Shown here piece by piece: positions 10,052 to 31,463 of a stretch of DNA of 64,000 bases (its first letter is position 1; each line of letters starts with the position of its first letter). The position numbers and the translations under genes were made by a program. The stretch comes from Hawksworthiomyces lignivorus (lineage: Eukaryota > Ascomycota > Sordariomycetes > Ophiostomatales > Ophiostomataceae): assembly GCA_002917075.1 (NCBI GenBank), contig NTMA01000068.1, positions 62,001 through 126,000 of the forward strand, given 5' to 3'. The notes beneath the pieces are model-generated. The model had not been told where the DNA came from and searched no databases. It saw nothing but the letters and a program-made list of their open reading frames with translations.

Positions 10052-10940
10052 TAGATGATAAATAAATCTTCAGATTAGCTGGTTTTAATACTCAATGCAG
10101 GAGAGTTAGGAAAGATTTATATTGTCAAACAACAAGATGAATGTTTTCTATTTAAATGGAACGAGAGGTCTTCAAAGCCCGATACGCTTCTAGTTGCCGG
10201 ATACGACAGATCCAAAGCCGAGACCAAGTCCGTAGAAATTTTCGGAGATCTCATGCCTAGACTTCAGATGTCGGAATGACTCACTATTCTCTGCATGGCA
10301 ATTTGTGTCTTTTGAATGTCCGGTTAACCCGTCGAACTAGCGTAGAATGGTTTGTTACGAGATGCAGTACAATACGCTGCGAATCACAAACAAAGGGATA
10401 GCCCCAGCGGCTTTCGTTTAATTAGGCGGGGTGAGTTGCTCTATTCCGAAAGTGCTAACTGCCGTAGGGCGTTGAATGACTCATCTAACTTCTTGGCCCC
10501 ATAGGGCGCTAGATGACACTTTTTAATGGGTCTAATAGATCTGGGACCCATTGTAGACACAGCATCTCCGCGGGGGAATGGGCTGATGAGAACTCAGAAC
10601 TCTTTTAATGCTGGACAGGCATCCAAAATACAGTGTGAGAGAGTTCGCAGCTTCAAAATTACCAGGTTTAGTGCCCAATTAACGCTCACTTACAGCCTCT
10701 TAAAGGCTGTTCAGTAGGCCATGCGAAGATATGTATGCTATAACTGGAACCTACGGAAAATAGTTTAGCCTTACGCTATATTTAGAGCCCATTACACTAC
10801 GAGCTTGGTATAAAGTTATCGGTCTGGTACGAATGTTATATCATAACTTCTACAGTTTTCACACTGCTACATCTTTCCACAAAATAACAGCGCTTTTCTG
10901 CTTTGCATACTGATAGTAGTTAGGATAACTTTCTTTCGAC
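10052..10940. other. Intergenic with two copies of a GTAGGGCG(T/C)T motif
   Basis: No gene recognised. A 17-bp motif occurs at 10464-10480 and, diverged, at 10501-10517. It resembles the reverse complement of the repeat unit at 7491-7541, on the other side of the decayed block. The last 100 bases should hold the promoter of the methyltransferase gene. Confidence 0.35.
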
Positions 10941-11667
10941 ATGTCTTCTTCACCAGCCCCCAATCCAGTTGTGGCTCCGGCTCATGTCCATGCCTTGCTC
11001 GACCGCCTCCATGCAGAATCTCTCGCACAAGAAGCTGCTCTCGGAAGCTTTCTCAGTTCTGGAGACAACTTTGATTCCCTAATGCGGGATAAGTTCATAG
11101 CTTTGGACCAAGACAAGTGCCAATTTGTGTATCAACTCGCCAGAGCCACCAACGCTCACAATATCGCGGAGGTGGGCACTAGTTTTGGTGTCAGCACCAT
11201 CTACCTCGCCTTGGCTGTTGGAAGCAACCTTGAGCGGAGCGGAGGAAATGGGATCGTGATTGCTACCGAGAAAGAGGACACCAAGGCAAAGAAAGCACGA
11301 CAGTACTGGGAGGAGGCTGGCACCGAACTGGTGGCAAGCCATATTGATTTGAGAGAGGGAGATCTCCATGAAACATTAAAGACCAACGTTCCAACTCTAG
11401 ACCTTGTCTTAATCGACAGTAAGTTGCCTCTGAATCTGGGGCCAAGATTTCAACTGACTCGCCACAGTCTGGGCGCCCGTTGCGCTGCCTGCATTAAAGC
11501 TTCTTGAACCCAAGATGCGGCCCGGGGCAGTTGTAATCGTTGACAACTCCATCTCCTCTGCCGCGCGATACGCAGCGTTATTGTCCTACCTCAGGTCTCC
11601 TGCGAATGGATATACAAATTTAACCCTTCCTTATTCAAATGGCCTGGAATTAAGTATCAAGTACTGA
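10941..11667 (+). CDS. Class I SAM-dependent O-methyltransferase
   Basis: Exons 10941-11418 and 11468-11667 (49-nt intron GTAAGT to CACAG) give 225 residues, typical of the small catechol/caffeoyl-CoA-type O-methyltransferases. The SAM-binding strand and glycine loop is NIAEVGTSFGVSTIYLA (residues 74-90), with an acidic strand IVIATEKE next. DLVLIDIWAP, formed across the splice, carries the metal-binding aspartate region, and VVIVDNSIS supplies the second metal-binding Asp-Asn. Without splicing the protein would end in an unrelated tail. The family methylates phenolic hydroxyls with a divalent metal in the cytosol. The substrate is unknown; neighbours are a decayed transporter and a HET gene, so no pathway is implied. 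Confidence 0.85.
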
Positions 11668-13022
11668 CCTGATACTGGTTCAGCACACCAGAAAGAGAGC
11701 CATGCCGTATACACGGGTAGTATGAGCTGATTTATGCATTGCGCCAAATAATAATCTAGACATAATAACTACTGTAGATTTGCTTAGCTATTCTAAAGGA
11801 CATTAGTCTAGACGACTCTCGATTGTTGTGAACTGCTCTATAGGTTGTAGGTGGACAGAGGCCGGCTTGTCTCATTGTTCTAGCTTGCTAGTGAGAGCGA
11901 GACGGGCTGACTCCTCGACTCCACCTAACCACCAAGACCACCACAACTTAACTAAATTCCTCAGAGTAGCCTTTACAAGGCTGCTCTGAGGTTTGCTTAA
12001 CCTTCTTGTTTCAGGGAGTGCATGAAGCTGCCTCCCTTACTGCGTAGGTGGCCAAGTTATGTGATGAGACTGCAGTAGCCTTGAGGCCTTTTTCGGATCT
12101 CAACCAATTCGCAACCAATTAACTTCGTTTTTGTTCCCACGAATAGCCTCTACTCTCGTCAGAAGCCGTATCTCCTCAGAAAGTGTGTATTCAGGTGCCT
12201 GCCTATTCTATCTGGTAAAAGGAGCAAAAAGTCTGGGCTCCTCCTTTGTATGGCTCCGGGCCGGTGAGAGGGCAGGATAGCTTTAGACAGCTAAATCCTC
12301 CACCTCTTTACAGCACTGCACAGGGGTCCCCCACGCTTACGACTCACTAGATCACTGCTGGTTTGACGAGTAGTTGAACTATAGCTACGTCTTTTCCAGG
12401 GAGCCCGGACGCTAGTGATGGGATAGTCATATTGTTCCCCGTCTTATGAAGCAAGGGACATTCTTTTCGGCCCCTCCATTACGCCGCCTTAAAATTGGTG
12501 GTATATTACGGCTGACTGCATTTCTTTGGGTATCAGTCGCATATGCTGCCGCATAAGTAGTGACGCCACAACACCATTATTTATGTATCTTTGGCGACGC
12601 TCAACCCCGCTCTCAAGAAGGCATTTATTTTCAACAGGTTAACAGCCTACATGTAGGCAGGATCCGGAGGCGGAAGGATATGATTGGTCACGAGCTTGCG
12701 ACTCAGCCTCACAGAATTCCTGTGAACCCAATAAAGGAGGAGAACCTTCGGACGAGGCGGTTAATTTGTTGCGTTTTATTTTGTTGAAGCACCACGAAAC
12801 CGAGATAGCGAGCCTTTGAAGCACCAAACAAGGCCAGCCACTCGATATCTTTGGCTGCAATCTTGCAACAGGCGCTGTTCAAAACAAGATTTAGTACAAC
12901 ACGTCCAAGATACGGTTTTCGCGCGCCGGTTTCGCCCCTCCTGTTCCTGCTCTCTCGGCACCTCGTTATCTTGCCAGTCTGCGTGTTCTATATGCTACTA
13001 CAAGGTGTCCCTCGATGTCACA
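11668..13022. other. Intergenic, no gene recognised; contains an inverted repeat
   Basis: About 1.35 kb of mixed composition, with only short frames lacking family motifs. It contains the hairpin listed at 11959-11991. The HET frame stays open upstream to 12816 but the added residues have no domain character. Confidence 0.45.
11959..11991. repeat. Inverted repeat, 14-bp arms, 5-base loop
   Basis: Left arm CCTCAGAGTAGCCT (11959-11972) and right arm AGGCTGCTCTGAGG (11978-11991) pair at 13 of 14 positions around TTACA. It may be a transcription terminator-like hairpin or a trace of a small inverted-repeat element; no target duplication was identified. Confidence 0.6.
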
Positions 13023-15890
13023 ATGCGCCTCATAAACGTCAAGACTTTGAAGTTTGAAAACTTCTTTGAAGACTCAGTCCCACCTTACGCCATCTTATCG
13101 CATACGTGGGGCAATGACAGCGATGAGCTTACGCTTCATGATGTCCAGGAGGGAAGGACTGATAAACGGGGCATCGGATCGCTCAAGTTTCAGAATTGCT
13201 GTCGGCAGGCCGACAAAGACGGGCTCGAATATGCCTGGATTGACACCTGTTGCATTAATAAAGCCGACTCAGTGGAGCTGAGTGAAGCCATCAACTCCAT
13301 GTTCCGATGGTATAGGCATGCTTCCATTTGCTACGCCTATCTATCTGACGTTTCTCCTTGCGACGAGCCCCGGAAGCAAGGATCCAAATTTCGGACCAGC
13401 CGGTGGTTTACAAGAGGGTGGACTCTACAGGAGCTTCTTGCACCGAAGCAACTGCGATTTTATGATTCAGAGTGGAACTTATTAGGAAATAAGGGAAGCC
13501 TATGCAATGTCGTTGCGGAAGTTACTGGAGTCCCTCGTCACTTTCTTCTGGGCATCGCCGAGCTGCAGAATGCCAGCGTTGCGCAACGAATGTCATGGGC
13601 GGCGCAACGAAAAACAAAAAGAACTGAAGACTTGGCTTATTGTCTCCTGGGAATCTTTGGCGTGACTATGCCGCTGATATATGGAGAAGGCAGTGGTCCA
13701 TCTTTCTTCCGGTTACAGGAACAGATAATGAAAATGACCAAAGACGACTCGATTCTAGCATGGGGTCTGGCCAAAGGAGACGAAACATCAACCGACCCGT
13801 ACCAAGTTCACGGAAAGATCTTAGCTGCTAGTCCATTAGAGTTTGCCAATTGTGGGCAGATCGCCTGTCGTGAATACAGTCATCCTACGTCCTTCGACAT
13901 TTCTGGTGGTAGATTGCGAATTTATGCATCGCTTGTTATCACGCCCACTGGGAGGACTGTTGGCTTATTGGGTTGCGGGCCCGAGAACGACAAACAACTA
14001 GTCGTTGCAATTCCTCTTGCCAAATCGACATCCTCGTTGCCTGACGAGTATATCAGACCGAAGGGACTCTCTGCACTGCTTGCACAAGCGGCTGGATCTG
14101 ACGACAACCCCCCCAAACCGATTTACGTTGCAGATGGTAGCCAAAGCAAGTGCCTCAAGAAGACTGACAAATATTACTGGTTCTACGACGGTGGCCCCAG
14201 CGACATCGACTTGGATCTCGTTGACGTGGCTCCGCAGAGCCGCTGGGACAAAGACCGGTCTCTGATTACAGCCCTAGATCATTCGAGTACCGGTGGTATA
14301 AGCCGGACCTGGACTCGGTTCTGTCACAACCGGGATAGCCTGCATGATTTCGTGATAATGCTTGGGTTAGAACAGAGAGAGTCTGACATCAAGGCTTATT
14401 ATCACATTATGATATGCGCCAGAGAGACACCCCTGACATCAATATACGAGAACTGGAAACGCTTGAGGCGAAAGCGAAACACATATAGGAATATCAGTGC
14501 AAGCAGTGGATCCTTGAATCTCTCAGTGGTGTTAGAACGTGTTGCAGGCCAGCCGATGTTTATTATCAAGCCAGAAGTGCTACTAGAGCCTCCAGAAAAT
14601 ACCACCAATATGACCATGGAGTTGGATAAGCTGTATAAGGAAGAGTCGTGTAAAACATGTTTGGCAAATTTGAAGAACATTTGGTTGGAGGCGGGAGACC
14701 TGCAGCTTACCGCCAAGCTAACTGCACAGCGCCTACAGGAGATGCAGAGTGAGCAAGAGAGCATTGAAGTGGAACTGAAAAAGCTACAAGAGAGGCTGGA
14801 ACTTCTTGTCGAAGAAAAAAGGAAGAAAACCACCGAAGTGCTGATTCTAGACGAGCAGAAGGAAACTCTGGCCAAAGCAAGGAATTCTGCGTCTATCGAT
14901 TATGTGGCGGCAAGAAGCGATCTGCACCAACTCCGGGCGGACTTCAGCGAGGTGGACATCTTCCAAGTAAAGCTGAAAGGCCAGACACCACTTCTATGGG
15001 CTGCCGAAGGGGGGCATGTCGAAGAAGTGAAAGTACTTCTTGACTACGGATTTGATGTGAATGGGTCGCTTGAAGAAGAGAAATGCATGTCGGAGGCGCT
15101 GATCGCGGCCTCAGGCAAGGGACACATAGAGGTAGTCCAACTCCTCCTCTCCAATACGCGATGTGATATCAACGCGCGCGACGAAATTGGCCGGTCGCCA
15201 CTCTCTCAAGCTACCGAAGGGGGGCATGAGGCCGTTGTGCAATTGCTCCTCGAAAATGGAGCCATCCCGCTCACTACATATAAATACCTCGGCTCGCCTA
15301 AGCCGATCAAAACGCGTCGCTCCAGATCCAGTCGCTCGCAAACATCTCTACGCATTGAATACATTGAAGGCGATAAAAGCAGCGATCCTGAGAGACCAGG
15401 GGGTCATATACCCAGTGTGCGCGTTCGTTTAAGGCCGTCCCGCAGCGACAAGGATGAACCTATAATGGTTTCAGGATCCGCTGATAGGAACCAAGCGGAT
15501 GCGAAGCCTTTGCCAGAAACGCCGCCTGGCAGCTGCAAGGATGAACATATAATACTCTCAGGGTCTGCCGATGAGAAGCAAGCAGATGCGAAGCTTTTGC
15601 CAGAAAATGGGAAATCTTCGCGCAGCACTCGGTCTTACGACAATTATTCTGTTGTCTCTAGTGCTTCTAGGCTCTCACATATAAACAACCCAGCTCTCTT
15701 GGAGAAGGTCAATGACGCTATACAGCGGCTTATTCTCCCCGAATTAGAGGCCTTAAAAAGGCATCAAGGCAATACTACTATTATAAGAATGGAGAACCGG
15801 ACCCACAACAAATCGGAGAGCGGACCTGCAATAGATTCGAGAACAGAAGCAAAAACAGTGAAGAGCAAGAAAGAAAAGGTTTCAGGGTAG
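13023..15890 (+). CDS. HET-domain protein with coiled coil and ankyrin repeats
   Basis: Single exon, 955 residues. I chose ATG 13023 because MRLINVKTLKFENF is the canonical opening of HET proteins, though the frame is open upstream. The HET domain spans roughly residues 21-150: PYAILSHTWG, then YAWIDTCCINK, AISYCYAYLSDV-like and WFTRGWTLQELLAP. LAYCLLGIFGVTMPLIYGEG follows. A Glu/Lys/Leu-rich coiled coil lies near residues 570-625. About three ankyrin repeats lie near 650-750 (TPLLWAAEGGHVEEVKVLLDYG, LIAASGKGHIEVVQLLL, SPLSQATEGGHEAVVQLLLENGA). A basic Ser/Arg stretch and a 29-codon tandem duplication (15447-15606) precede the C-terminus. There is no NACHT/NB-ARC segment, so this is not a classic NLR. 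HET proteins trigger cell death on non-self recognition; the partner here is unknown. Confidence 0.88.
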   Translation: MRLINVKTLKFENFFEDSVPPYAILSHTWGNDSDELTLHDVQEGRTDKRGIGSLKFQNCCRQADKDGLEYAWIDTCCINKADSVELSEAINSMFRWYRHASICYAYLSDVSPCDEPRKQGSKFRTSRWFTRGWTLQELLAPKQLRFYDSEWNLLGNKGSLCNVVAEVTGVPRHFLLGIAELQNASVAQRMSWAAQRKTKRTEDLAYCLLGIFGVTMPLIYGEGSGPSFFRLQEQIMKMTKDDSILAWGLAKGDETSTDPYQVHGKILAASPLEFANCGQIACREYSHPTSFDISGGRLRIYASLVITPTGRTVGLLGCGPENDKQLVVAIPLAKSTSSLPDEYIRPKGLSALLAQAAGSDDNPPKPIYVADGSQSKCLKKTDKYYWFYDGGPSDIDLDLVDVAPQSRWDKDRSLITALDHSSTGGISRTWTRFCHNRDSLHDFVIMLGLEQRESDIKAYYHIMICARETPLTSIYENWKRLRRKRNTYRNISASSGSLNLSVVLERVAGQPMFIIKPEVLLEPPENTTNMTMELDKLYKEESCKTCLANLKNIWLEAGDLQLTAKLTAQRLQEMQSEQESIEVELKKLQERLELLVEEKRKKTTEVLILDEQKETLAKARNSASIDYVAARSDLHQLRADFSEVDIFQVKLKGQTPLLWAAEGGHVEEVKVLLDYGFDVNGSLEEEKCMSEALIAASGKGHIEVVQLLLSNTRCDINARDEIGRSPLSQATEGGHEAVVQLLLENGAIPLTTYKYLGSPKPIKTRRSRSSRSQTSLRIEYIEGDKSSDPERPGGHIPSVRVRLRPSRSDKDEPIMVSGSADRNQADAKPLPETPPGSCKDEHIILSGSADEKQADAKLLPENGKSSRSTRSYDNYSVVSSASRLSHINNPALLEKVNDAIQRLILPELEALKRHQGNTTIIRMENRTHNKSESGPAIDSRTEAKTVKSKKEKVSG
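15447..15606 (+). repeat. Coding tandem duplication of about 87 bp in the HET gene
   Basis: Two diverged copies, 15447-15519 and 15534-15606, each encode a DE(P/H)I(M/I)xSGSAD(R/E)xQADAK(P/L)LPE peptide. The period is 87 bp (29 codons), so the frame is kept. Many third-position differences show that it is not very recent. Confidence 0.8.
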
Positions 15891-16572: not shown

Positions 16573-17847
16573 ATGACCGGGCACGCCTTCATCAAAGACG
16601 TGGTCATCACGCCTGTTGCTTTCCATGACATGCCCCTTCTCAATAGCGTTGGCGTCCATGAGCCCTACGCCCTGCGCAGTATCATCGAAATCGTCACAGA
16701 GGGCGGTCTCTACGGCCTCGGCGAGTCATATGGCGACTCAACCCATCTCGGCCGCCTGGAGAAGGTTGCGGCTCAGCTGAAAGGTCGATCTGTCCACGAC
16801 ACAAATGGCATCTACCAGATCTGTGTCAATTCTCTAGCTGGGGATACATCCACAGGGGGAGATGGAATGGCAGGCATGGTGACGACGGCGTCTGTGGCGG
16901 ACAAGGTGTTCAGCCCCTTTGAAGTTGCGTGTCTCGACCTGCAGGGCAAGCTGGCTGGTGTACCAGTTTGTGATCTGCTCGGTGGAAGAGTGAGAGATCA
17001 GGTACAGTTCTCGGCATATTTGTTCTACAAATGGGCTGGTCATCCTGGTGAACCAGATGACGAGTATGGCGAGGCCCTGGATCCAGAAAGCATCGTCAGA
17101 CAGGCCAAGAAGATCATTGATGAGTACGGCTTTAGGGCCATCAAGCTCAAAGGCGGTGTCTTTCCTCCTGCACAAGAGATCGAAGCCATAAAAGCCCTAC
17201 ACAAAGCCTTTCCTGGTTTCCCTCTGCGAATCGACCCTAATGCCGCGTGGACGGTTGATACGTCTAAATGGGTAGCTCGCGAGCTCGACGGCATCATCGA
17301 ATACCTTGAGGACCCGGCACCTGAAATCAGCGGCATGGCCGCCGTCGCCAAGGAGGCCAATATGCCCCTAGCCACCAACATGGCTGTCGTCAGCTTTAAC
17401 CACCTTCCAGCGTCGGTGCGGCAGGACGCTGTGCAAGTCATACTCCTTGATCATCATTTCTGGGGCGGCCTCCGGAAATCCCAAATCTTAGCCGGCATAT
17501 GCGCCACCTGGGGGATGCGTCTCTCGATGCACTCCAACAGCCACCTGGGCATCTCCCTCGCGGCCATGACGCACCTCGCCTCTGCGACGCAAAACGTGGA
17601 CTATGCATGTGACACACACTGGCCTTGGAAGAGGCGCGACGAGGATGTAGTTGTCGGAGGTACCCTGAAGTGGAAGAACGGTGGGCTCGTGGTGCCAACA
17701 GGGCCTGGATTGGGCATTGAGCTGGATCGGGAGAAGCTGGCAAAGCTGCACAAGCAGTACTTAGATTGCGGGCTGACGAAGAGAGATGACACAACGTACA
17801 TGAAGAAGTTCAATCCCGACTTCTCGGCTCATATCCCGAAATGGTGA
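16573..17847 (+). CDS. Glucarate dehydratase-like enzyme (enolase superfamily)
   Basis: Single exon, 424 residues. The N-terminal capping domain includes SVGVHEPYALRSIIEIVTEGGLYGLGE. The barrel carries the glucarate-dehydratase signature residues: KLKGG with Lys191 and Lys193 (second Lys is the base), metal ligands Asp221 (RIDPNAAW), Glu246 (YLEDP) and Asn269 (LATNM), and the catalytic His320 in SMHSNSHLGIS. The late DTHWPW and RDDTTYM segments match bacterial glucarate dehydratase closely, more so than fungal L-galactonate dehydratase. Expected reaction: D-glucarate (or galactarate/idarate) to 5-keto-4-deoxy-D-glucarate plus water, Mg2+-dependent, cytosolic. The gene sits upstream of a carrier, a DHDPS-family aldolase, an SDR and a regulator that fit the same pathway. 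Substrate preference among acid sugars is not fixed by sequence. Confidence 0.88.
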   Translation: MTGHAFIKDVVITPVAFHDMPLLNSVGVHEPYALRSIIEIVTEGGLYGLGESYGDSTHLGRLEKVAAQLKGRSVHDTNGIYQICVNSLAGDTSTGGDGMAGMVTTASVADKVFSPFEVACLDLQGKLAGVPVCDLLGGRVRDQVQFSAYLFYKWAGHPGEPDDEYGEALDPESIVRQAKKIIDEYGFRAIKLKGGVFPPAQEIEAIKALHKAFPGFPLRIDPNAAWTVDTSKWVARELDGIIEYLEDPAPEISGMAAVAKEANMPLATNMAVVSFNHLPASVRQDAVQVILLDHHFWGGLRKSQILAGICATWGMRLSMHSNSHLGISLAAMTHLASATQNVDYACDTHWPWKRRDEDVVVGGTLKWKNGGLVVPTGPGLGIELDREKLAKLHKQYLDCGLTKRDDTTYMKKFNPDFSAHIPKW

Positions 17848-19552
17848 AATGCAACGCAGCAAAGGATAGTAGAAAGCGAGATGGCTCTAAATAGAGAGTA
17901 TTATAGGTTGCAACATATAGTCCGTAGCTAACAGTGCTAGGCTATTTCGTAGGCAGCGTATGTTTATGTGGATATTCCTTGGTCCTAAGGTAGACAACCT
18001 ATCTCAGCATTTAATGAAAATTATTCTACAGCTAGTTTTGCCGTACTTCGACACTTCAATGCGAGCATCGTCTTTCGGGATATTTCTCAGTCTTTGAGCC
18101 ACCTTTAATCTTCGTCAAGTACATGATATTATACCTTGAAGTAGTGAAAGGACTTCGAGTTTACAGTCAATTGTGTTAAACCGTTATTTTCCATCTGTGA
18201 TGGTTGACTAGGGTTGACTAGCTCACTGTCCATCTTCAATTGAAACACGATCTCTATGAAACATGAGACATGGACTCTAATATAAATAATTTTGCCATCA
18301 TACTCATTATCAAGCACATATCAGCGTGGTTGGAAGCTATGATCTTCTCATAGTCACTAAACGCCTAATCGAAAATAGCATCATGATTCCCCTTGAGCCT
18401 CTTGATAAGCCCATTAGCCTTTGTGGACAGTTGCCCGTATAGAACTAATTGATAGCCTTTCAACTTTGCGTAAAAGCCTTTAAGGAAACGATCTTAACAA
18501 GCATCCCCAATTGAACGACGATACCTTGAAAAGCAACCATTCTTACCTCTTCATCTTAGGTTTCAAAAATCTTATTATGAGTTCATTCCTTGAACAAGCT
18601 ACACCATAAACTTGAAACTGCCAAGTACAGAGTTAGTTAATCACTATTCCTCACAATGCTCTAATAGTCTAGTTTGAATCCCTACAATACAAACTTGTAC
18701 TCCTACAATAAAGCTACAATACAAGCGTTGATGCCTATGATGATTTGCCTAACCAGTAAATGCTCTAGTACGATTTCGCCACGATGTAAAAGCTCATTTA
18801 CGGTATCCCACATACCAATAAAATGTAAATGCAGAGACTCATTCTCTAACAGTAGCTAGACAAAAAAAAACATGAACTGTTTCTCCACAGTCAGTTCTTC
18901 GTTGCCCATAATTAAGCCACTCCGTGGTTCGACATTGAGAGTATTCGCGATAAGGTTGCAAAACTCTCGTATTACGGGTCGTGGGTTAGCGTTACAAGGA
19001 GAGGCGGAAAACAGAGGCGGCTAAGACGCACTACATATCCGTCTCCACAATGCCCTCCGCTTTTACACTAGCGACAGCCATTTTCCGTTGATCTACACAG
19101 AAAACCGAAGGTGCCGTGGGTCCAGTCGGCCAAGAAGTGCGAGACGGGATTTGGAGGTCTTGCTGAACAAATCTGGGGTGAAGTGCGGGGATGCAAATTT
19201 ATCAGCTACGAGAGATGATACGGTATGCACGCTACATACCGAGCCTCACAAGGTGTACGTTTTCTACCTGTCTTTCTTGCTGTCATTTTCTATGCTTGCA
19301 TTGCGGGGATCAGCATCCCCAGCTCTAATCTGGTTTTATAAATGTAGATTTCTCGCTCTCCTGTTGAGGGTTTGGCAAGCTGTCTTTGGTCCGGTTATCT
19401 TGCTTTATGGGATTTCAAATTAGAGAAAGGCAATTCTGACGACTGTCCCAGCGAGGCTGCTAGCACTTCTGAGCTGCTTTTGGCCATTATTTTTCTGAAA
19501 CAATCATTGCTTAAAGTCTGTCATCAACTTCGTGAATTGTCTCTGGTTCATC
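17848..19552. other. Intergenic, AT-rich, no gene recognised
   Basis: About 1.7 kb. It contains a directly repeated GGTTGACTAG near 18199-18219 and an A-run near 18862. Frames up to 111 codons show no family motif. The 3' part is the promoter and leader of the MFS gene. Confidence 0.45.
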
Positions 19553-21329
19553 ATGACAGGCGACACTGAGCAAGTCATCTCGGACCATGACGTCCTCGGA
19601 GGCAAAGCCGAAATAAGTCACGAGGAGATGGTGCACCTTGTTGAACTAACACCCGAGGAGAAGGAGATTGAAAAAAAACTTCTCCGCAAGATTGATTTGC
19701 TAATCATGCCGCTCGTCATTGTCGTCTATCTTATGAACTACATTGATCGGTAAGCCATCTTAGTTTGCACTTTTGGAGATTCTCGACGGCTCTGTCTTTG
19801 GTTTCTTTCGGAAAGGTTTGTGACAAACTATCCATATTAACTTTTGCCAGGAACAACTACGCTGCCGCTAGACTCCAAGGTCTCGAAAAAGATCTTGGCC
19901 TTGTTGGCCAGCAATACCAGACTGGCTTATCCATCCTATTCGTAGGATATTTACTGATGCAAATTCCCTCTAACTTGCTGCTCAATTATATCGGTCGTCC
20001 CTCGCTCTACATTGGCTTCTGGGTCTGTGTTTGGGGCCTTGTATCTGCTTGCACAAGTCAAGTCAAGAGTTATGGCGGCATTGTTGCTTGCCGTTTTCTC
20101 CTCGGTTTTGTTGGTATGTAGCTAATTCTCCGGAAGAATATCACTCTGGTATGGGCGACTAACAACCGCAAAAGAAGCACCTTTCTTCGGAGGTGTTCTC
20201 TTCTACCTCTCCAAATGGTACACTCGCAAGGAGTTGTCCTTCCGGATGAGTATCTTTTATTCCGGATCGCTTCTCAGTGGTGCTTTTGGTAACCTGATCG
20301 CGGCGGGGATACTTAACGGCCTAAACGGAGCACGAGGCATTGCTGCATGGCGATGGCTTTACATTATCGAAGGCTCGATCACTTGCTTTATCGGCATTAT
20401 CATCTGCTTCCTCCTTCCTGATTTCCCTGAGACATGGCGGCTCTTGCAAGGGGCGACAAAAAACGTTGCTCTGAAGCGTTTGGCCATCGAAGCAGCCGAA
20501 GCTGACATTGACGAGCAAGGTGGTGAGTCCTCCCAGATTCCAAAGTCTCGCACATTCCGAAACTTGAAGATGCCCATGTCACTAACTTAATTTCAAAGGC
20601 ATGACCCAAATCAGGGGCCTTAAACTGGCAGTCATGGACATCAAGACATGGGCCTTTGCTTTCATGTACTTCTGCATTGCCGGCGCCGGCAGCTTCCAGT
20701 ACTTCTTCCCTACCCTCACCAAGACTCTTGGCTACAACAGCACCATTTCGCTGCTGCTTGTCGCCCCCCCGTACATATTCGTCGCCTTGTATAGCTTGGC
20801 GCATAGCTGGGTTGCCGATCGCATCGCCGTCCGTCATTGGTTTTTCTTCTATCCCATCCCGATCACTATCGTCGGATTCATCATCTTCATGACTGTCGAC
20901 TCATTTGGGCCACGATACTTCTCTTTTTTCCTCATGAACCTGACTTTTGCGCAAAACGGTGTTCTCTATTCTTGGATCGCCAACGCCCTGCCTCGGCCTC
21001 CCGCCAAGCGTGCCGCCGCTTATGGCATCATCAATATGATTGCTAACTCGGCCAGTATATGGACGCCCTACACGTACTACGATGCTGAAGCGCCGTTCTA
21101 CCGCGTTGCTCTCGGCGTGTGTACCGCGATGCAGGTGCTTGGCGGGCTGACTAGCTTCTTCATGTACTTCAACTTAAAGCTCCAGAATAAGAGACAGGAG
21201 AGGCTAGAGAACGAGGACGTGCAACTTACAGAGAGAGAACTGCGGAGACTTGAAACAACGGCCAGGGTCGAAGGTGTCGATTTGGCAACAGCAAGGAAGT
21301 TGCAGAAGGGATTCCGGTACATGTTGTAA
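19553..21329 (+). CDS. MFS transporter, anion:cation symporter (ACS) family
   Basis: Exons 19553-19749, 19851-20113, 20175-20522 and 20599-21329 give 512 residues. The N-terminal acidic tail ends at KIDLLIMPLVIVVYLMNYIDRNNYAAARLQG, the standard ACS-family TM1 with its DRxNxxxA motif. LSILFVGYLLMQIPSNLLL (TM2), GRPSLYIGFWVCVWGLVSACTS, GFVEAPFFGGVLFYLSKWYTRKE (TM4/5), WRWLYIIEGSITCFIGII and LPDFPETW follow. The second half, with KTWAFAFMYFC and PPYIFVALYSLAHSWVADR, is complete, and the C-terminal tail is charged. The family (Dal5/Tna1-like) imports organic anions such as allantoate, nicotinate and sugar acids with protons at the plasma membrane. Between a sugar-acid dehydratase and an aldolase, import of an aldarate or hexonate is the simplest reading. 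ATG 19553 is preferred over an upstream non-ATG extension. Confidence 0.88.
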
Positions 21330-21841
21330 ATATTCGCTGCTGCAATTGCCCCAAAACTGATCTAGAGTATATCTATTGTATGCAAATAGCATCCATGTCA
21401 TGAGCTTGTAAATAAACCTAAGATAAATTGAAGACAATATTAAGGAAGCAATCTAAGTTTACAGTAAGACCATTACACAATGTGGAGATAATTACGGCAG
21501 GAATGTTTGTGAACACGGGTTGACACGGCTAATAAGATGCAATGTCTATTACCAGGTCATCCTTGACATATATTTGGATAATAAGTGAATTCATGTGTTC
21601 TACGATATATTGAAAAGTAAATTGATGCGATAGAATTTTTAAAGTTTAAACCTCCACGCAATGAAGAAAGTTTCCTTGAAGTGAGAATCTTCTTCTTTGC
21701 GGTCATCCTCTATTAAGATATATAGCACCCGATATGAGAAGTATTTAATGCTATTGATTTTTAATTGCTTCTCTTCTATCCATAGGCCGTATCACCCTTC
21801 TATGTCTATTTGTGGAACTGAATCATATTCTCACTTCTGCT
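21330..21841. other. Convergent 3' intergenic spacer
   Basis: AT-rich spacer between two convergent genes. No gene seen; presumably both 3' UTRs. Confidence 0.5.
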
Positions 21842-22801
21842 TTACAAGGTAGCTTCAATCTTTACCAACTCTTTCGTCCCCTCCTCAACAGCCTTCTTTG
21901 CCGCATCCGAGCATTCCACATACGGCCTCCTGGGCTTCAACTTTTCCAGCGCGTCGACAATGCCTGCAGCTTTAGCAGTGTTCAATGCAACTCCGTACTT
22001 GACCGAAGCGACGCCCGCCTTGCAGGGCTGCTCCGCCAGCGCGGCCGTCTTGTGTAGCGCCATGGCTTCCTCAAACTTGCCCTGCTTGTATAGCTGGTAG
22101 ATGCGGTTAATCGTCTTGGGAAAGACATTAGAAAAGCCGGCGATAGTGCCAGAAGAGCCCGCGGCAAGGCCGCCGATCAGGAAGTCGGACTGGCCGCCGT
22201 AGATGGAGAAGCGCTCTGGGGGAAATTCAGCAGCGAGCCGAGTGATCTTTGCAACGGCGCCGCAGGTGAGTTTGACTCCAACAATGTTGCTATGGCGGCG
22301 CGCCAGATCAGCAATAGTGTTAGAGTCAAGGTCCACGCCATTGCAAACTGTGGGAAAGTTGTAGATTACAATTGGCAGGGGACTGGCGGTCGCAATGTCG
22401 TCGAAAAAGCTGTTGATCACCTCAGAGGTGGTCTGTTTTCCGTAGTACGCTGGCGGTAACACAAGCACATAGTCTGCGCCAGCTTCGGTTGCATCAGCAA
22501 TGTGTTCGAGCACCTGCTTGGTGGAGTGGCCGCTCACGCCAGCCATGATGGGGTACGAAGGGCCGCAGGCCCTTCTGGCGGTTTGGAGCAGAGCCCTGCG
22601 CTCATCACGAGTGAGCAGGAAGGTTTCAGCGGTGGTGCCTAAGACAACAAGGCCTGCCAAATATTTAGAGAGATAGGCAAAGTACTTGGCTTGGGCGTCA
22701 AGGTCAAGTGTGTCGGTGCCATGATTGAAGAAGGTGATAGCTGGAGCCCAAACACCCGCAGGGGGCGTGATCGGCTTAATGGTGTCGCGGGCGGCAGGCA
22801 T
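21842..22801 (-). CDS. DHDPS/NAL-family class I aldolase or dehydratase
   Basis: Single exon, 319 residues, a full-length TIM-barrel of the dihydrodipicolinate synthase/N-acetylneuraminate lyase family. The pyruvate/keto-acid loop GTTAE is at residues 55-59, the catalytic tyrosine in IVIYNFP is Tyr147 and the Schiff-base lysine in VGVKLTCG is Lys177. The YGGQSDFL segment and the AGVASVKYGVALN tail resemble the fungal L-threo-3-deoxyhexulosonate aldolase type (GaaC/Lga1-like), which releases pyruvate. Here the partner enzyme is a glucarate dehydratase, so a likely substrate is 5-keto-4-deoxyglucarate, cleaved to pyruvate and tartronate semialdehyde, or dehydrated to ketoglutarate semialdehyde as KdgD does. 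No semialdehyde dehydrogenase is nearby, which favours the aldolase route. True lysine biosynthesis is unlikely because fungi use the aminoadipate route. Confidence 0.88.
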   Translation of the reverse strand: MPAARDTIKPITPPAGVWAPAITFFNHGTDTLDLDAQAKYFAYLSKYLAGLVVLGTTAETFLLTRDERRALLQTARRACGPSYPIMAGVSGHSTKQVLEHIADATEAGADYVLVLPPAYYGKQTTSEVINSFFDDIATASPLPIVIYNFPTVCNGVDLDSNTIADLARRHSNIVGVKLTCGAVAKITRLAAEFPPERFSIYGGQSDFLIGGLAAGSSGTIAGFSNVFPKTINRIYQLYKQGKFEEAMALHKTAALAEQPCKAGVASVKYGVALNTAKAAGIVDALEKLKPRRPYVECSDAAKKAVEEGTKELVKIEATL

Positions 22802-23984
22802 TATGTCCTGTCAAATGTCGTTGTAACTAAGAGGAAGAAAGTCGTGCAGGAGTCTAAAAGTCAAATCGTCGAATCAGATATGACTAGGATCATAGAATTT
22901 AACTACGTGACAAGAACAATACAAAGTATTGAGTAAAGAGGAATGAAAATGTAGTTTCAGAGGAAGCGTTAAGTAGAGTGTAATGAGAGAGAAACAGAAA
23001 ATGTCCGAGTTTCTTATCGAAGGAGTATGTGGAGAGAAACAGGTCCTGTTTCTAGTCAAGGCAGGCCGTGCAGACTAGGTATATCCACTACGCAAGTCTC
23101 CTCCGTTTCGGAGGCACTTGGATAAGGTTATTAGAATTTGTTATACGTTTTTGTTGTCAACGCTGTAGTGTTTGAAGCATATGAAAGTCTGCTTGATGTT
23201 TCTGGCCTGTGGTTATTACATAGATTAGAAATATCCCGAGTATGTTTAAGCCTTGCCCGATGCAGCTAAGGTCGGCATCTCGTCTCCCTTCTACTCTCTA
23301 TTTGTTATGAATATTTCTTATTTCCACACATAAGCATCTTTAGTTGTATGTATTTCGCCATCCTATTTAACAACATCTTATGATGCTGAAGTGATTGATT
23401 GACTTCGCTTCCGATTTCAAGCTATGTGGGTATTTCTTCTAGCATGCATATTAGTGCATGTAGGAATCTCCACCACCTGTCAGCTCGTCGCTAGAACGAG
23501 AACTGATGACCAGCGGAAAACCTCTTAGTGAGACGGAATCCAAGGACCCCGCACGTAGAGACTGCCATAACCGTCGGATAAGAACCCAACAACCACGATC
23601 ACCCCTGTGATAGAGATTTAGACCGGATCATCTCCTATTGTACCTCTTGGCTGACCTGTTATTGGCTCCGCAGATAAAGCTAGAATGATAGGTTTCTTTG
23701 ACCACATGTGAAGCTTCGATACTACTTGAAAGTTGATGTTGAAGTTAGAATGCCATATCCCCTTGTCCTGCTTCTAGTTTCGCCCTGTTGCATAGAGATG
23801 ATTCAAACTGCGTAATCGACTCTTCTTGTCCAGTTATGCTGATCTTTTCTCATACCTTTTTTGTCTATCTCTACCATAAAAAATTCAGAAGCCAATATAC
23901 CAACAGTTCTCCAATGTAAAAATTCGGTATAATTCCGTTTAAGTCATGCAAGAACTCCTCCACATAATCCCTCGCCATTTAAAT
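22802..23984. other. Intergenic, no gene recognised
   Basis: About 1.2 kb; contains the promoter of the aldolase gene (right of 22801) and the 3' flank of the SDR gene. Short frames show no family motifs. Confidence 0.45.
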
Positions 23985-24981
23985 CTATGACTTTCTGTGC
24001 ATGATAGTGGCGGCAGCTTGGTGGTTTGGGAAGATGAGCGAATCGGCCAAAACAACATTCTCCCGGCGCCCAGCAGAAAAGACAATAATCTCGGCAATGT
24101 CGTCTGGTGTCAAAGGCTCACAGCCGCTTCAAGTTACTTAGTACGCTATTGCAACCAGGCACACAGCAGAGTTCAGACAAACAAGACACTTACGCATAGA
24201 CGGCGTCGGCTTTGCTCTTGTCCCCGTAGAAGCGCACGACCGAGAATTCAGTCTCTACTTGGCCAGGATCCACGCTGATAACGCGAATGCGCTTAGAGAT
24301 AAGCTCCTTGCGTAGAGAATCAGTGAAGGTGCGGACAGCGGCCTTCGTTGCGCAGTAGATACTACCGCCGACATATGGCTCGCGACCAGCAATAGAGCCA
24401 ATGTTGATGATGTCTCCAGCGCCCTCACCGTTGTTGCGCCGTAGCATCATGGGTAGGATGGCTTGTGTCATGTTAATTAGGCCCGTGACGTTAGTCGCAA
24501 ACATGATATCGATATCTTCCTCGGCGATCTCTGGTGCCTTAGCAACGCCACGGACTAGACCACTACGAGGTCGTTAGTATTAAAATTCTGATGTTTTCAT
24601 ACAGCATAGGAGTATTTCTAAACCACACAATACGTATGATTCGGTGCGGGTTGCTGGAGGAGCGAATGCTTACGCGTTGTTGACCAACACATCAATCTCT
24701 GCGAATTCTGCGGGCAACTTGCTCACGAAAGAGCGAACCTCGTCCGGCTTGCTTACATCGAGCTGCACTGGAAGCACCTTGACGCCCTCACCGACTTCTT
24801 TAACGATATCTGCGGCGATCTTCTTCAGGTCGTCGATGCGGCGCGCAGTGAGGACAAGCTTGATGTTCTTGGGGCTGGTGCGAGCAAACTCAAAGGCGGT
24901 TGAGCGGCCGATCCCCGAGGAAGCACCCGTGATGAGGATAGTCTTTCCCTCCAGGCGCTGGCCCATTCTTGAAGCAGACAT
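23985..24981 (-). CDS. Short-chain dehydrogenase, 3-hydroxyacid dehydrogenase type (yeast YMR226C-like)
   Basis: Exons (minus strand) 24981-24674, 24562-24194 and 24126-23985 give 272 residues with all junctions in phase. The cofactor motif ITGASSGIG is at residues 17-25, VLTARR provides the NADP-type basic residues, and LVNNAGL is completed by the first splice. DIINIGSIAG supplies Ser, YCATK supplies the catalytic Tyr and Lys, and SVDPGQVETEF follows. The C-terminal PLTPDDIAEI and NHQAA segment match the family that oxidises L-serine, allo-threonine and 3-hydroxy acids with NADP+, and that in bacteria (YdfG) reduces malonic semialdehyde. In this cluster it could reduce tartronate semialdehyde to glycerate. 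That role is inference; the fold and class are firm. Confidence 0.87.
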
Positions 24982-25778
24982 GTTGCAAAGATTTTGTGAC
25001 GCAGTGGTCTGGCTCTAAGACGAGATGTGTGCTATCGCTGGAGGAGGATGTTCTCTTTAAGACAATTGGAAATATATGTAGTGGAAAATTTGAGCGTTGA
25101 TAGTCTACTTTGAAAAACAAGATGAAGTCATCATAGAACTCGCTGTTACGTCATATAGATAATGGCACAGCTCTCATCTCAAGGTGTTTTTCGACACTGG
25201 CGCGGCGACCGCTTTCAACAGCTAATCTTCGTAGTCAAATTTCATAGGTGCACTGATCTCCGTCTCGTAATTCTATGTCTCAACATCAGCCTCTAGGTAT
25301 TCTATCACGAAGAGTTGGCTTTGACCCACCTTGATTTCCGCGCATGGGGTGGTCCTTTTCCGTCCGCTGCCCCATAGTACTCCGCACATACGCCCTAGCT
25401 ACGGCTATGTCTTCAACTTGTTGCGGACGTAGTCGGACATAAGTCCAATACCTCTTCGTTGCTTAACGGATGTAATCAGGCGCAACCATCTCGCAACTTT
25501 CCCATCCAGAAAGCCCCAATTTTGCTCCATCGTGGTTAGATGAACCCTTTGACGGATTTTTGGTGTTTTAGCTTCTCCAAAATGACCCAAGAGCACTGCT
25601 AGTCTCTTGCTTTCTGTTGTTAACTGAAATATGCAAAGAAGAATCTAGCACTGAAAATTTGTCCAGATAGATGCGTGATGGAATTTCCCAACCTGTACTC
25701 TGAAAGTGACTAATCGAGAACATATAATTGTTTCTTTGAATTAAAAAGCCTGCCTCTTGTTGAAGTTTCTGAGCTTTT
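24982..25778. other. Intergenic, no gene recognised
   Basis: Promoter of the SDR on its left side and the 3' flank of the regulator gene on its right. A 63-codon minus-strand frame at 25596-25405 has no known motif. Confidence 0.45.
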
Positions 25779-28202
25779 TCAGCCGAAACTGTGATGTTGC
25801 TGGTCGAACACCGACCCTGACCCTGCCGTCATCGACGCGGCATCAATATTACCCAAGCCCGAGGACACCATCGAAAAGAACTGATCCCATCCCGGATTGT
25901 CTGTCAGGGCCGCAACGGGCATACCATTGAGGTCAATTGTAACCCCCCCAGCTATTTGGCCGGAGTAGTTGCTAGACATGGCAAGAGGGCTCTCGTCGGT
26001 GGGTATCGACGTGTTGTGGTAGCCGTGAGCGTCTTCCATGCCTGACATGCCGGCCAGTGATGGGTGTGTATGTTTTGTCTGCCGTAAGGCCTCTACGCGA
26101 AGCTCTTCCAGAACAAGGCAGTATCGTTCTGAGAGTGAGCCCTTTTCGGCAATACTGGAAAGATGGGCTTGGCATCGGGCGGCAGCAGCGAAATATTCAT
26201 TGTAGACCTCCGGTGGCGCCTCTCGTTTCTGAATCACGTAGATGTAAAGCAAAATTACTGCATTAAAAGCGAAATACGCAGTAATCTACCACGATCAGTT
26301 TCCATTTTGATTTTCAAGGTCGAAGGAGAACCTACCCAGAAAGAGCGGAACATCTGATTGTTTCGCGTAATATCGTCAATCGTCTTCACGGTGCTCATCG
26401 CAGCCATAAGACATTTTTGTATGCTCTCCTCGTGTTGTCTATTTGTGGAGCTTGAGCCCCATGATTGCTGCGAAAGTTGCGCAAAATTGCTGAGAATAAA
26501 GGGCCTGTGAGCAAGGATGATCGAATGCCAATATGTCAGATTCAGGACGTTTCGCTGTCGCTGGAAGATGGGCATGAGAAGTGAAGCGCTGAAAGCGTCC
26601 GCATCGAGGAAGCGCGCCAAACCAGCGCGCCACTCGCTCAAGTCTTTCGAGATGCTTGCAGTGAGGGTTACTCGTCGGCTGGTCGTAATGGGCTTGACGG
26701 AGTAGAGGCCACGAAGGATCTTGCTGCTTATGCGGGCCAGCCTGTGAAATGTCAACAACGTGCGTCTGGATGAGCAGCTGCAGGATAACCTACTTGATGT
26801 GTGCGAGCGGGGCAAGCATGACGGAAGGACCCTTGTCCGTAGTTGATGAACGGATGCCGTCTTCCATGATATCGTGGTCATCAACACAGGCCGGAAGGTC
26901 GGTGTCGATGTCCTCGTCGTGGAACAGCCGTGGCCTTCCTAAGGAGGCACTGAGATATGCATCTAGAGTGTAGGCACACCAAAACGTCCGACGGCGGCAT
27001 TCAACTTCGATGCAGCTCAAACCGTTCGCCGCGTCCGGGTGACGATTTCTGTTGAGACCAAGAGCGAGTACCAAGCTCATTACGGTGCCAAACAGGCTCC
27101 AGCAATGGTTGATGCGTGATTGCGTGAGAAGATAGTAGCACTGGGTTAAGCGTGCTTGAACGCTGGTCAAGCGTATGGAGCCCGTCTCGTTTGTCAGATG
27201 ATGCTCAGCTGCAAAATAGAATCGCGCGCTACAGAATTTCAAGTCAGCAACAACTTGCAGCCATTCGCTGTAGAATTCCCTAACCTCAGATCGGGAGGTC
27301 CAGGCCTATCGTTATCTGGCATGTACACCCTCGCCTGGGCAAATACCATGAAGAGCAAAGCGACTTTCGCTGGAGCGCTCTGTGAGTCGTGCATAACTCC
27401 AAGGGTGTCGTAAAACTCTGCAAACCACTTCTGGACCGTGGGGCGATGCAGGAAACGGTATGTTGGCATAGCAAAGTCAAAATACCGATCCACCAGGCGC
27501 TGTGCATCGTCTCGAGAAAGCATCAAGCAGAAAGAATGATCGAACCCCGAGGACTTCAGAGGCGCGTCACCGAATGTGAAAATACTGCTCGGATGGGCGA
27601 ACGAAATAGCCTGACGCAACCGTTTCTGGATCCGAAGCAAAAACGAGACTCCTGAGGCCGGTCCGACATAGTGCCCCTCCAAATCGGTCTGCGATGGCTC
27701 GGATGCATCTCGCGGTGATATTGCTGTATAACTCTGATCTGACTGTCCCATATATTCTAATGAGAGGTCGTTGCCTTGTATTCCTGAGCCGTGCTCCATC
27801 GCTGCTGTGCCCGATTCTGTCTGATACTGCTGACCGCCAAAAGACGGACCTGATCTAGGCGCGCCCATGCCCTCATCCGGGATGCCAGCTGAGGCATTGG
27901 ACGCTGACGGGATGAGAGGCACTCGGCCCCTCACATAGGCGGAATCAAATGTGCAGCTTGCCTTTGCTCGAGAGCAAAATTCACACGGCTGAACGCCATT
28001 GCACTTGATTTTCCGCCTGTACGTATCTTCATTTAGTCTAATATCAAGCCAAATTAGAGACTAGATTCTTTTCGTACCTCTTGCACCGATCGCAAGCTCT
28101 AGTGACTCTCACCCTCTCGCTGTCTCTCTTGCGCTTCTTGGCGACCTGTTGTGGGGCGCCGTTCTCTGGAGACTCGGGTGGTTGACGGCGGCTCATAGAC
28201 AT
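25779..28202 (-). CDS. Zn2Cys6 fungal-specific transcription factor
   Basis: Five exons (minus strand): 28202-28078, 28016-27285, 27228-26794, 26741-26336 and 26285-25779, giving 734 residues with each junction in phase. The binuclear cluster has Cys37, 40, 47, 53, 56 and 63 (CDRCKRRKIKCNGVQPCEFC), preceded by a basic KKRKR stretch and built across the first intron. The fungal-specific domain follows: RYFDFAMPTYRFLHRPTVQKWF, LTQCYYLLTQSRINHCWSLFGTVMSLVLALGLNR, and ECRRRTFWCAYTLDAYLSASLGRPRLFHDEDIDTDLP, which is the classic middle homology region. The distal C-terminus is low-complexity and could activate transcription. It ends the aldarate-like gene run, so control of those genes is plausible. 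An alternative start two codons downstream would change little. Confidence 0.88.
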
Positions 28203-30273: not shown

Positions 30274-31463
30274 ATGCAGTCGGCTAAGTATCTACAACAT
30301 ATAAGAGCCATGGTGGCAGCATGTCCACCATTGCCGCGGATAGGTCGATGGCTACGCCTGGTTAGCGCTGTCGCCATATTCCTGTACGCACGCACTTCGT
30401 TGCTCACGATGCATTTTACACAAGACTGGCGGTAGTTCTAACGGCAAAATTTGGCAGGCCAATCGTCTTATGGTTAGCAGTCCTTCGGTCGTCAAACATG
30501 AATATATTGATCGATTACACCCCGCGGGTTGAGGGCGCCAAGTTAGCGCTGCTGATCGAACAGCGGCCGCTGCCAAATCTAGTGCCTTTGATGCTGCACT
30601 TTATCAGTGTTGTGCCACCAGACTGGCGCTTTCGGTTTATGGGTTCAAACGAAAGCGTGTTGCATATCAACAGGAGCTCGGCGATCCGAGAGCAGGTCGC
30701 CTCAGGCAAGCTTAGTCTTACATACATACCGGCAAACCAAACAACCGGATCGCAAGAGGAGATCAACCGCTTCTTCACCCAGCGGTGGGTGTACGAGACT
30801 CTGCTGCAGCCTGCAGAGTGGCTGCTTGTTTTCCAGACGGACAGCATGCTGTGCGCCAACAGCAAGAAGTCCATCAACGACTACCTGGGATACGACTGGG
30901 TTGGTGCGCCATGGGATCCAGATGGCAGCTTCGGCGGGAACGGAGGTCTGTCGCTGCGCAGGGTCAGCTCGATCATCGAAGTGCTGCGAACCAACAACCG
31001 GTCCGACAACGGCGAGCCCGAGGACATTTTCCTTTCGAATGCCTTGAACGGTCGCCTGGGCGCCAAGATGGCCAACGGCCGGCTCTCCTCCACCTTTTCA
31101 GGCGAGATGAACTCGGGACCAGGTGAAACCATTGACCACAACAAGGGCATCGACAAGATCGACACGGACGGGTGGGTTGAGGGTATCGATGACTGGCGCG
31201 AGGGCTTCTACGAGCCGATGGGCTTTCACACCGGCGCAAGCGGCACCACGCTCCACAGTCCGATATGGGGCACACCGGAGCTCCGCGCGCACATGTGGAA
31301 GTACTGTCCGGAGATAAAGCTGATACTCCAGATGGATGCTGCTCAGTACGTGCCAGGTGACTGCGGCTCGAATTGGAAAAGATCAGATAGCGAAGAAGGC
31401 TATATGACGGAGGTTGTCGATGGTGTAGAATACCCCTTGATACCAAACTTGATTCCTTGGTAA
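30274..31463 (+). CDS. DUF5672 family protein, type II membrane anchor, probable glycosyltransferase
   Basis: Exons 30274-30383 and 30458-31463 give 371 residues. Splicing (GTACGC to GGCAG) joins LRLVSAVAIFL to PIVLWLAVL, making one clean N-terminal transmembrane helix near residues 28-45. The unspliced frame stops at once, which supports the intron. The lumenal part carries KLALLIEQRPLPNLVPLMLHF, WLLVFQTDSMLCANS, YDWVGAPWDPDGSFGGNGGLSLRR and ANGRLSS, the usual block order of DUF5672. The DxD-like QTDSM and GGNGGLSLR segments resemble GT-A glycosyltransferases. A Golgi-lumen sugar transfer role is inferred; donor and acceptor are unknown. The start at 30274 could instead be ATG 30310, which keeps the helix. 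Confidence 0.82.

Follow-up and report, generated by a model that had tools for sequence, protein, structure and literature searches.

The stretch of DNA analysed here (the window) covers 64,000 nucleotides of the genome of the ascomycete Hawksworthiomyces lignivorus (assembly GCA_002917075.1, contig NTMA01000068.1, positions 62,001 to 126,000; C157:62001-126000 in the 43.7 Mb, 191-contig genome). It contains a group of five consecutive genes at positions 16573-28202, arranged in the order dehydratase and transporter on the + strand, followed by aldolase, reductase, and regulator on the - strand. An original prediction, made from the sequence alone, had read this group as a complete cluster for the catabolism of aldaric acids (sugar diacids) such as glucarate and galactarate. 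All five genes were present where predicted, and their families were borne out by Pfam matches:

16573..17847, + strand: glucarate dehydratase (GlucD)-like dehydratase of the enolase superfamily; one exon, 424 amino acids (aa); Pfam MR_MLE_C, 189 bits
19553..21329, + strand: major facilitator superfamily (MFS) transporter; four exons, 512 aa; MFS_1, 108 bits
19553-19749, 19851-20113, 20175-20522, 20599-21329, + strand: transporter exons; spliced frame without internal stop
21842..22801, - strand: DHDPS-family class I aldolase; one exon, 319 aa; Pfam DHDPS, 141.5 bits
23985..24981, - strand: short-chain dehydrogenase/reductase (SDR) of the YMR226C/YdfG 3-hydroxyacid type; three exons, 272 aa; adh_short
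24981-24674, 24562-24194, 24126-23985, - strand: SDR exons in the splice model
25779..28202, - strand: Zn2Cys6 transcription factor; Zn_clus and Fungal_trans (92 bits); partial exon model
28202-28078 (exon 1) and from 28016 (exon 2), - strand: regulator exons whose join yields a full Zn2Cys6 cluster

Alternative splicings of the transporter also keep its frame open, for example with exon 3 ending at 20519. No matches to RNA families were found in the window. Among the matches listed, the nearest named proteins were those of Niveomyces insectorum RCEF 264 (dehydratase 88%, aldolase 87%, SDR 88%), in which all three enzymes lie on one 2,219,155-base contig.

The group is a real catabolic cluster, with its three enzymes linked in many fungi. 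For each enzyme we took the best 120 rows of a protein search, each with the longest contig of its protein cluster, and contigs were scored as shared when their listed sizes were equal; enzymes on the same contig are not necessarily adjacent. Shared contigs were found 25 times for aldolase and dehydratase, 19 times for aldolase and SDR, and 18 times for dehydratase and SDR. At least two of the three enzymes occurred on 46 contigs, seven of them shorter than 30 kb, and all three occurred on eight. In a control with unequal contig sizes, differences within 1 bp gave 0, 0, and 0 pairs, and differences within 5 bp gave 2, 1, and 1. Since only the best 120 rows were listed, the absence of a pair carries no meaning. 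Synteny in other ascomycetes was the check that the original prediction had put forward, and with the three enzymes linked in many of them, a refutation by absent synteny fails.

Locus tags were one to five apart in 19 loci among the matches listed. These were found in Monosporascus (GIB2, M. ibericus, and CRB-9-2), Rhinocladiella mackenziei, Thyridium curvatum, Exophiala bonariae, Talaromyces islandicus, T. rugulosus, Verticillium albo-atrum, V. longisporum, Fusarium decemcellulare, F. zealandicum, Trichothecium roseum, Aspergillus terreus, Penicillium citrinum, P. macrosclerotiorum, Neonectria magnoliae, Scytalidium lignicola, and Thermomyces stellatus. The identifiers of Thermomyces stellatus are possibly non-positional, and P. 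citrinum falls outside the 46 contigs. On three shared contigs (Thelonectria olida, Aspergillus floccosus, and A. californicus), DRAFT-type identifiers were far apart and were assumed to be non-positional. All three enzymes lay close together in Verticillium albo-atrum (009010 SDR, 009011 aldolase, 009014 dehydratase), Thyridium (009060, 009062, 009064), and Rhinocladiella (07834, 07832, 07830). The linked genera span at least the Sordariomycetes and Eurotiomycetes.

A protein search of the 43.7 Mb genome, in which six candidates were scored, gave no second match to the dehydratase. A single genomic match, together with three enzymes that share contigs in many fungi, points to more than chance. 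The aldolase and SDR families are both large (at least 2257 and at least 7999 relatives, respectively, with E ≤ 0.001), which lends some room to the idea that these two enzymes belong together in an older module acting on another 2-keto-4-hydroxy acid, the dehydratase being linked by chance or for some other reason. We consider this highly improbable, because the dehydratase itself shares contigs with both partners (25 and 18 times).

The closest solved structure to the dehydratase was 3va8 (807 bits), a 'probable dehydratase' that we take to come from Fusarium graminearum, followed by 3vdg, 3vc5, and 4it1 at 583-460 bits. Structures named glucarate dehydratase or glucarate dehydratase-related scored 236-200 bits, including glucarate dehydratase 1ec7 at 211 bits. 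In alignment, the enzyme was 33% identical to Escherichia coli GudD and shared 16 of 19 GudD active-site positions (N27, H32, Y150, F152, K205, K207, D235, N237, E260, N289, D313, H339, S340, N341, H368, and R422 in GudD numbering), the changes being S29 to V, T103 to G, and E266 to I. The functional roles of the 19 positions are those we presume, and the third metal ligand we take to be E260 or E266, both of which were counted. The KxK motif, metal ligands, and His-Asp dyad are present as K191, K193, D221, E246, N269, D293, and H320, again with presumed roles, in agreement with the predicted glucarate-dehydratase-like enzyme with its catalytic and metal residues kept. The same 16 residues were found in the eight actinobacterial rows (60-65% identity) and five fungal rows of the alignment.

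The dehydratase is of actinobacterial origin and was acquired by horizontal transfer. Among bacterial and archaeal genomes, a scan found 426 dehydratase relatives, and the best 80 of these were all filed under actinobacterial names, with identities of up to 70%. We built a quick maximum-likelihood tree from 111 rows: the window, 39 of the 120 fungal rows listed, 69 of the 80 bacterial loci, and two E. coli rows. Its 40 fungal rows grouped into a single clade (support 100) that nested within the sampled actinobacteria. The sister of this clade was an uncultured Nocardioides (support 99), and some deeper forks had supports of 86-93. A bacterial-to-fungal transfer is in itself not new and is already in print for Colletotrichum, where glucarate dehydratase is HGT5, one of three transfers predating the Sordariomycetes, with earlier reports of homologues acknowledged (PMC4320630, in excerpt). 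According to the same excerpt, the C. graminicola candidates have no introns and expression of the C. higginsianum copy rises early in infection. Colletotrichum rows among the matches listed were 79-82% identical to the window dehydratase, and HGT5 (GLRG_01139, CH063_01625, CGSP_03952) was equated with them by its published name, not by alignment. Unlike in the cluster described here, an aldolase and an SDR go unmentioned in the excerpted text of PMC4320630.

Gene neighbourhoods were compared across the best 80 of the 426 bacterial loci, with flanks of up to 8 kb. When the predicted neighbours were clustered, 36 of the 80 loci had a KdgD-like group, 24 an aldehyde dehydrogenase (ALDH) group, and 11 a group resembling talarate/galactarate dehydratase. 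A tblastn search with one representative per family (thresholds of >200 bits for KdgD and >300 bits for ALDH and talarate/galactarate dehydratase) found KdgD in 30 of the 80 as a raw count, a KGSADH-like ALDH in 24, and talarate/galactarate dehydratase in 12; any of the three occurred in 44 loci, and KdgD together with ALDH in 13. The KdgD representative passed NF002958 (409 bits, cut-off 278) and that of talarate/galactarate dehydratase passed its NCBIfam model (654 bits, cut-off 500). The ALDH representative scored below all NCBIfam cut-offs shown, so its role is presumptive. In none of the 80 loci did the fungal aldolase outscore KdgD, and no SDR, GarR, or GarL match exceeded 120 bits (tblastn). 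Transfer of the whole cluster from actinobacteria is thus not supported. The actinobacterial GlucD-like clusters are similar in their dehydratases, which are 60-70% identical and surround the fungal clade, but they have KdgD and ALDH, neither of which is among the five genes of the window. Of the eight loci nearest to the fungi, the genes of four were inspected by eye, and peptide-type ATP-binding cassette (ABC) transporter genes were recognised in these.

As predicted, the DHDPS-family aldolase has Tyr147 and Lys177 intact, and both residues were invariant in 30 of 30 rows (the window and 29 of the 120 listed relatives). Its best solved relative was 3qfe (439 bits). A profile of the 30 rows scored 520 bits with 3qfe, 114-112 bits with YagE, a DHDPS, and HOGA1, and 91 bits with KDG aldolase. 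HOGA1 cleaves a keto-hydroxy diacid. The models for dapA, HHED aldolase, NanA, KDG aldolase, and KdgD each matched all 30 rows at E 0.001. KdgD, a member of the same superfamily, lies near the dehydratase in 30 of the 80 actinobacterial loci, in line with a reading of the window protein as a decarboxylating, KdgD-like 5-keto-4-deoxyglucarate dehydratase. It would then produce 2-oxoglutarate semialdehyde, an unlinked aldehyde dehydrogenase would convert this to 2-oxoglutarate, and the SDR would have another job. We regard such a route as quite unlikely: the KdgD models scored far below their cut-offs on the aldolase (TIGR03249, 62 bits vs 374; NF002958, 71 bits vs 278), the genome gave no exon-level match above the KdgD cut-off, KdgD was nowhere beaten by the fungal aldolase in the 80 loci, and the linked partner is a reductase.

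The SDR carries the catalytic triad Ser159/Tyr172/Lys176, and its best solved relative was yeast YMR226C (3rku, 267 bits), with sulfoacetaldehyde reductase (6ixj, 164 bits) next, which agrees with the predicted 3-hydroxyacid-dehydrogenase type. For the middle exon alone, the best model was that of YdfG (NF007829, 116 bits, cut-off 411), and source names among the relatives included 3-hydroxy acid dehydrogenase and malonic semialdehyde reductase. Three or more close paralogues of the SDR are present in the genome, matching it at 83, 71, and 68% across portions of the middle exon and at 57-68% across longer stretches. In a quick tree of 122 SDR rows, where 'unlinked' denotes no partner among the listed rows, all 30 linked rows (29 of 120, and the window) fell within one 73-row subtree, the other 43 rows of which were unlinked, and none of the 49 rows outside it was linked. 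The linked SDRs point, though not firmly, to a cluster-type subfamily of paralogues.

The transporter and regulator are candidate members of the cluster. The transporter scored 191.6 bits against TIGR00893, the D-galactonate transporter subfamily (cut-off 395), and was 27% identical to E. coli GudP over 247 aa. Two fused dehydratase-MFS models from Colletotrichum (P0136 and P0236) were considered as support for the transporter and rejected, since their MFS part has no real match to it. These fusions hint at another neighbouring transporter in Colletotrichum. The intergenic regions at 17848-19552 and 21330-21844 had G+C contents of 41.6% and 34.4%, compared to 48.3% for the window, and may be decayed repeats.

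Taken together, the cluster probably serves to take up a six-carbon aldaric acid and degrade it to pyruvate and tartronate semialdehyde, with reduction of the latter to glycerate. The MFS protein would import the aldaric acid, and the dehydratase would remove water to give a 2-keto-3-deoxy or 5-keto-4-deoxy diacid. The DHDPS-family enzyme would form a Schiff base on Lys177 and split the diacid into pyruvate and tartronate semialdehyde, the SDR would reduce tartronate semialdehyde to glycerate, and the Zn2Cys6 protein would turn the cluster genes on. An aldol split, not a decarboxylation, is predicted here, as are the substrate and cofactor of the SDR, the transport, and the regulation. The names given to the SDR relatives refer to 3-hydroxy acids, malonic semialdehyde, and sulfoacetaldehyde, which fits an aldehyde bearing an acid group and thus a diacid as the starting substrate. 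Judged from sequence, this substrate would most likely be D-glucarate, possibly also L-idarate or galactarate; D-glucarate is preferred because the enzyme retains the GlucD contacts and because 12 of the 80 bacterial loci also have a talarate/galactarate dehydratase nearby. The five genes as one aldarate route are the best-supported reading and hold in outline, with support from the linkage of the three enzymes, but 'complete' was too strong a word: none of the five encodes a glycerate kinase, and no match to PF02595, the GarK family, turned up in the genome, in a search limited to that family among the kinase classes. Glycerate as an end product would need a kinase.

The same logic of dehydratase, aldolase, and reductase could serve another acid: either galactarate or a pentarate or, on the model of the gaa galacturonate pathway, an aldonate. 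The fungal D-galacturonate (gaa/lgd) pathway has monoacid substrates, an MR/MLE protein as dehydratase, a DHDPS protein as aldolase, and an aldo-keto reductase in the last step. Fungi are known to reduce glyceraldehyde with an aldo-keto reductase and are not known to use this type of SDR for it. We consider another acid unlikely, given the retained GlucD contact residues (with presumed roles), the talarate/galactarate dehydratase alongside in actinobacteria (12 of 80 loci), and the glyceraldehyde that an aldonate would leave, which is not the type of substrate for which this SDR family is named. The window dehydratase, unlike that of the galacturonate pathway, is of the GlucD-like branch. What speaks for another acid is the galacturonate route itself, with its dehydratase, aldolase, and reductase in series (EC 4.2.1.146, 4.1.2.54, and 1.1.1.372; PMC4870679, in excerpt), and the induction of an MR/MLE gene on galactarate in Aspergillus niger. 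The route by which this fungus consumes galactarate is described as unknown; its MR/MLE gene 1146483 rose from 2 to 641 and 1661 fragments per kilobase per million (FPKM), and its SDR gene 1141260 from 132 to 805 and 747 FPKM (PMC5153877, in excerpt).

Compared to the E. coli D-glucarate pathway (GudD/GarD, GarL, GarR, GudP/GarP), the aldaric acid route proposed here has the same steps, and the dehydratases and transporters are distantly related. A domain search placed E. coli GarL among the HpcH/HpaI aldolases and GarR among the 6PGDH-like dehydrogenases, whereas the window aldolase is a DHDPS-family and not an HpcH/HpaI protein, and the window SDR has SDR domains instead of NAD_binding_2 and NAD_binding_11. 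GarL- and GarR-type partners in the cluster were thus rejected, and with GarL and GarR belonging to unrelated families, the fungal aldolase and SDR would be analogues. The earlier parallel with GarD/GudD, GarL, and GarR survives for the proposed steps and not for the aldolase and reductase families. HpcH/HpaI (GarL) and GarR families do occur elsewhere in the genome.

We lean slightly towards a hybrid eukaryotic pathway, in which an early-acquired actinobacterial aldarate dehydratase was combined with a HOGA/KDG-type aldolase and an SDR of the 3-hydroxyacid type that arose by duplication, in an aldol route. This would comprise one transfer into the Pezizomycotina, pyruvate and glycerate as products, retention of the cluster as a linked unit across two or more fungal classes, and a dehydratase whose bacterial relatives are often near a decarboxylating KdgD route; fungal descent of the aldolase and SDR is assumed.

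Several observations weigh against the aldarate reading of the cluster. The dehydratase did not pass the NCBIfam glucarate dehydratase equivalog TIGR03247 (249.5 bits, cut-off 828.7), a score so low that the enzyme represents a separate, GlucD-like branch and is not filed as an equivalog. E. coli GudX keeps the same 16 active-site residues yet is annotated only as 'glucarate dehydratase-related', so these residues back the family and are no proof of glucarate turnover. YagE, DHDPS, and HOGA1 lie within 2 bits of each other, too close together for the relatives to name the aldolase reaction. The support of the SDR subtree was 92 in a quick tree, below the tool's mark of 95, and the linked rows formed no clade but were mixed with unlinked rows inside it (21 changes vs 27 in shuffles). 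Besides the raw nature of the KdgD count, KdgD matches in the flanks of the eight actinobacterial rows nearest to the fungi (L009, L012, L013, L045, L010, L064, L014, and L018) were confined to L012 (179 bits) and L018 (80 bits), with none in the other six. The best shared promoter motif, CGG-N15-CGG, occurred in three of the five promoters, but 58 of 300 shuffle sets reached this maximum when it was taken over all Zn2Cys6-type patterns, and a shared motif was rejected. HGT5 is counted as lost from 88.72% of the Pezizomycotina genomes then available (PMC4320630, in excerpt). In A. niger, deletion of 1146483 or 1141260, possible orthologues of genes in the window, left galactarate use intact, and 39114, 1090836, and 1121140 were needed fully or in part for galactarate (PMC5153877, in excerpt).

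The use of sugar diacids by fungi is unsettled, as the genes needed in A. niger give no clear pathway (PMC5153877, in excerpt). A Coniochaeta failed to consume mucic acid (PMC7393721, in excerpt), and the excerpted text of PMC12076931 covers the A. niger galactarate work and contains no fungal aldarate pathway. The present cluster is undescribed in the excerpted texts of PMC6353982, PMC6695620, PMC4870679, and PMC5003357. In a search of open-access literature, no title or abstract start dealt with a linked dehydratase-aldolase-SDR set. The linked three-enzyme set provides named candidate genes and offers a role for the published bacterial-to-fungal transfer. It also bears on the engineering of fungi as producers of galactarate or glucarate, because genes of this kind could use up the product.

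Other genes were recognised in the rest of the window. Directly upstream of the cluster, a 1041-aa open frame at 12765-15890 (+) encodes a HET (heterokaryon incompatibility) domain and ankyrin repeats. An exon of a thiamine pyrophosphate (TPP)-dependent enzyme at 39705-40817 (-) matched acetolactate synthase and oxalyl-CoA decarboxylase models best; it scored far below all NCBIfam cut-offs shown and was rejected as a pathway member. At 53673-55931 (-), a ferric reductase frame lies next to another open stretch of the same reading frame, the two being separated by one stop, and a Fungal_trans regulator frame at 59880-61502 (+) has one in-frame stop within an apparent short intron. The remaining features were an amino acid permease at 51510-53218 (+), a DUF5672 protein at 30366-31460 (+), and an O-methyltransferase-like exon at 10929-11504 (+).

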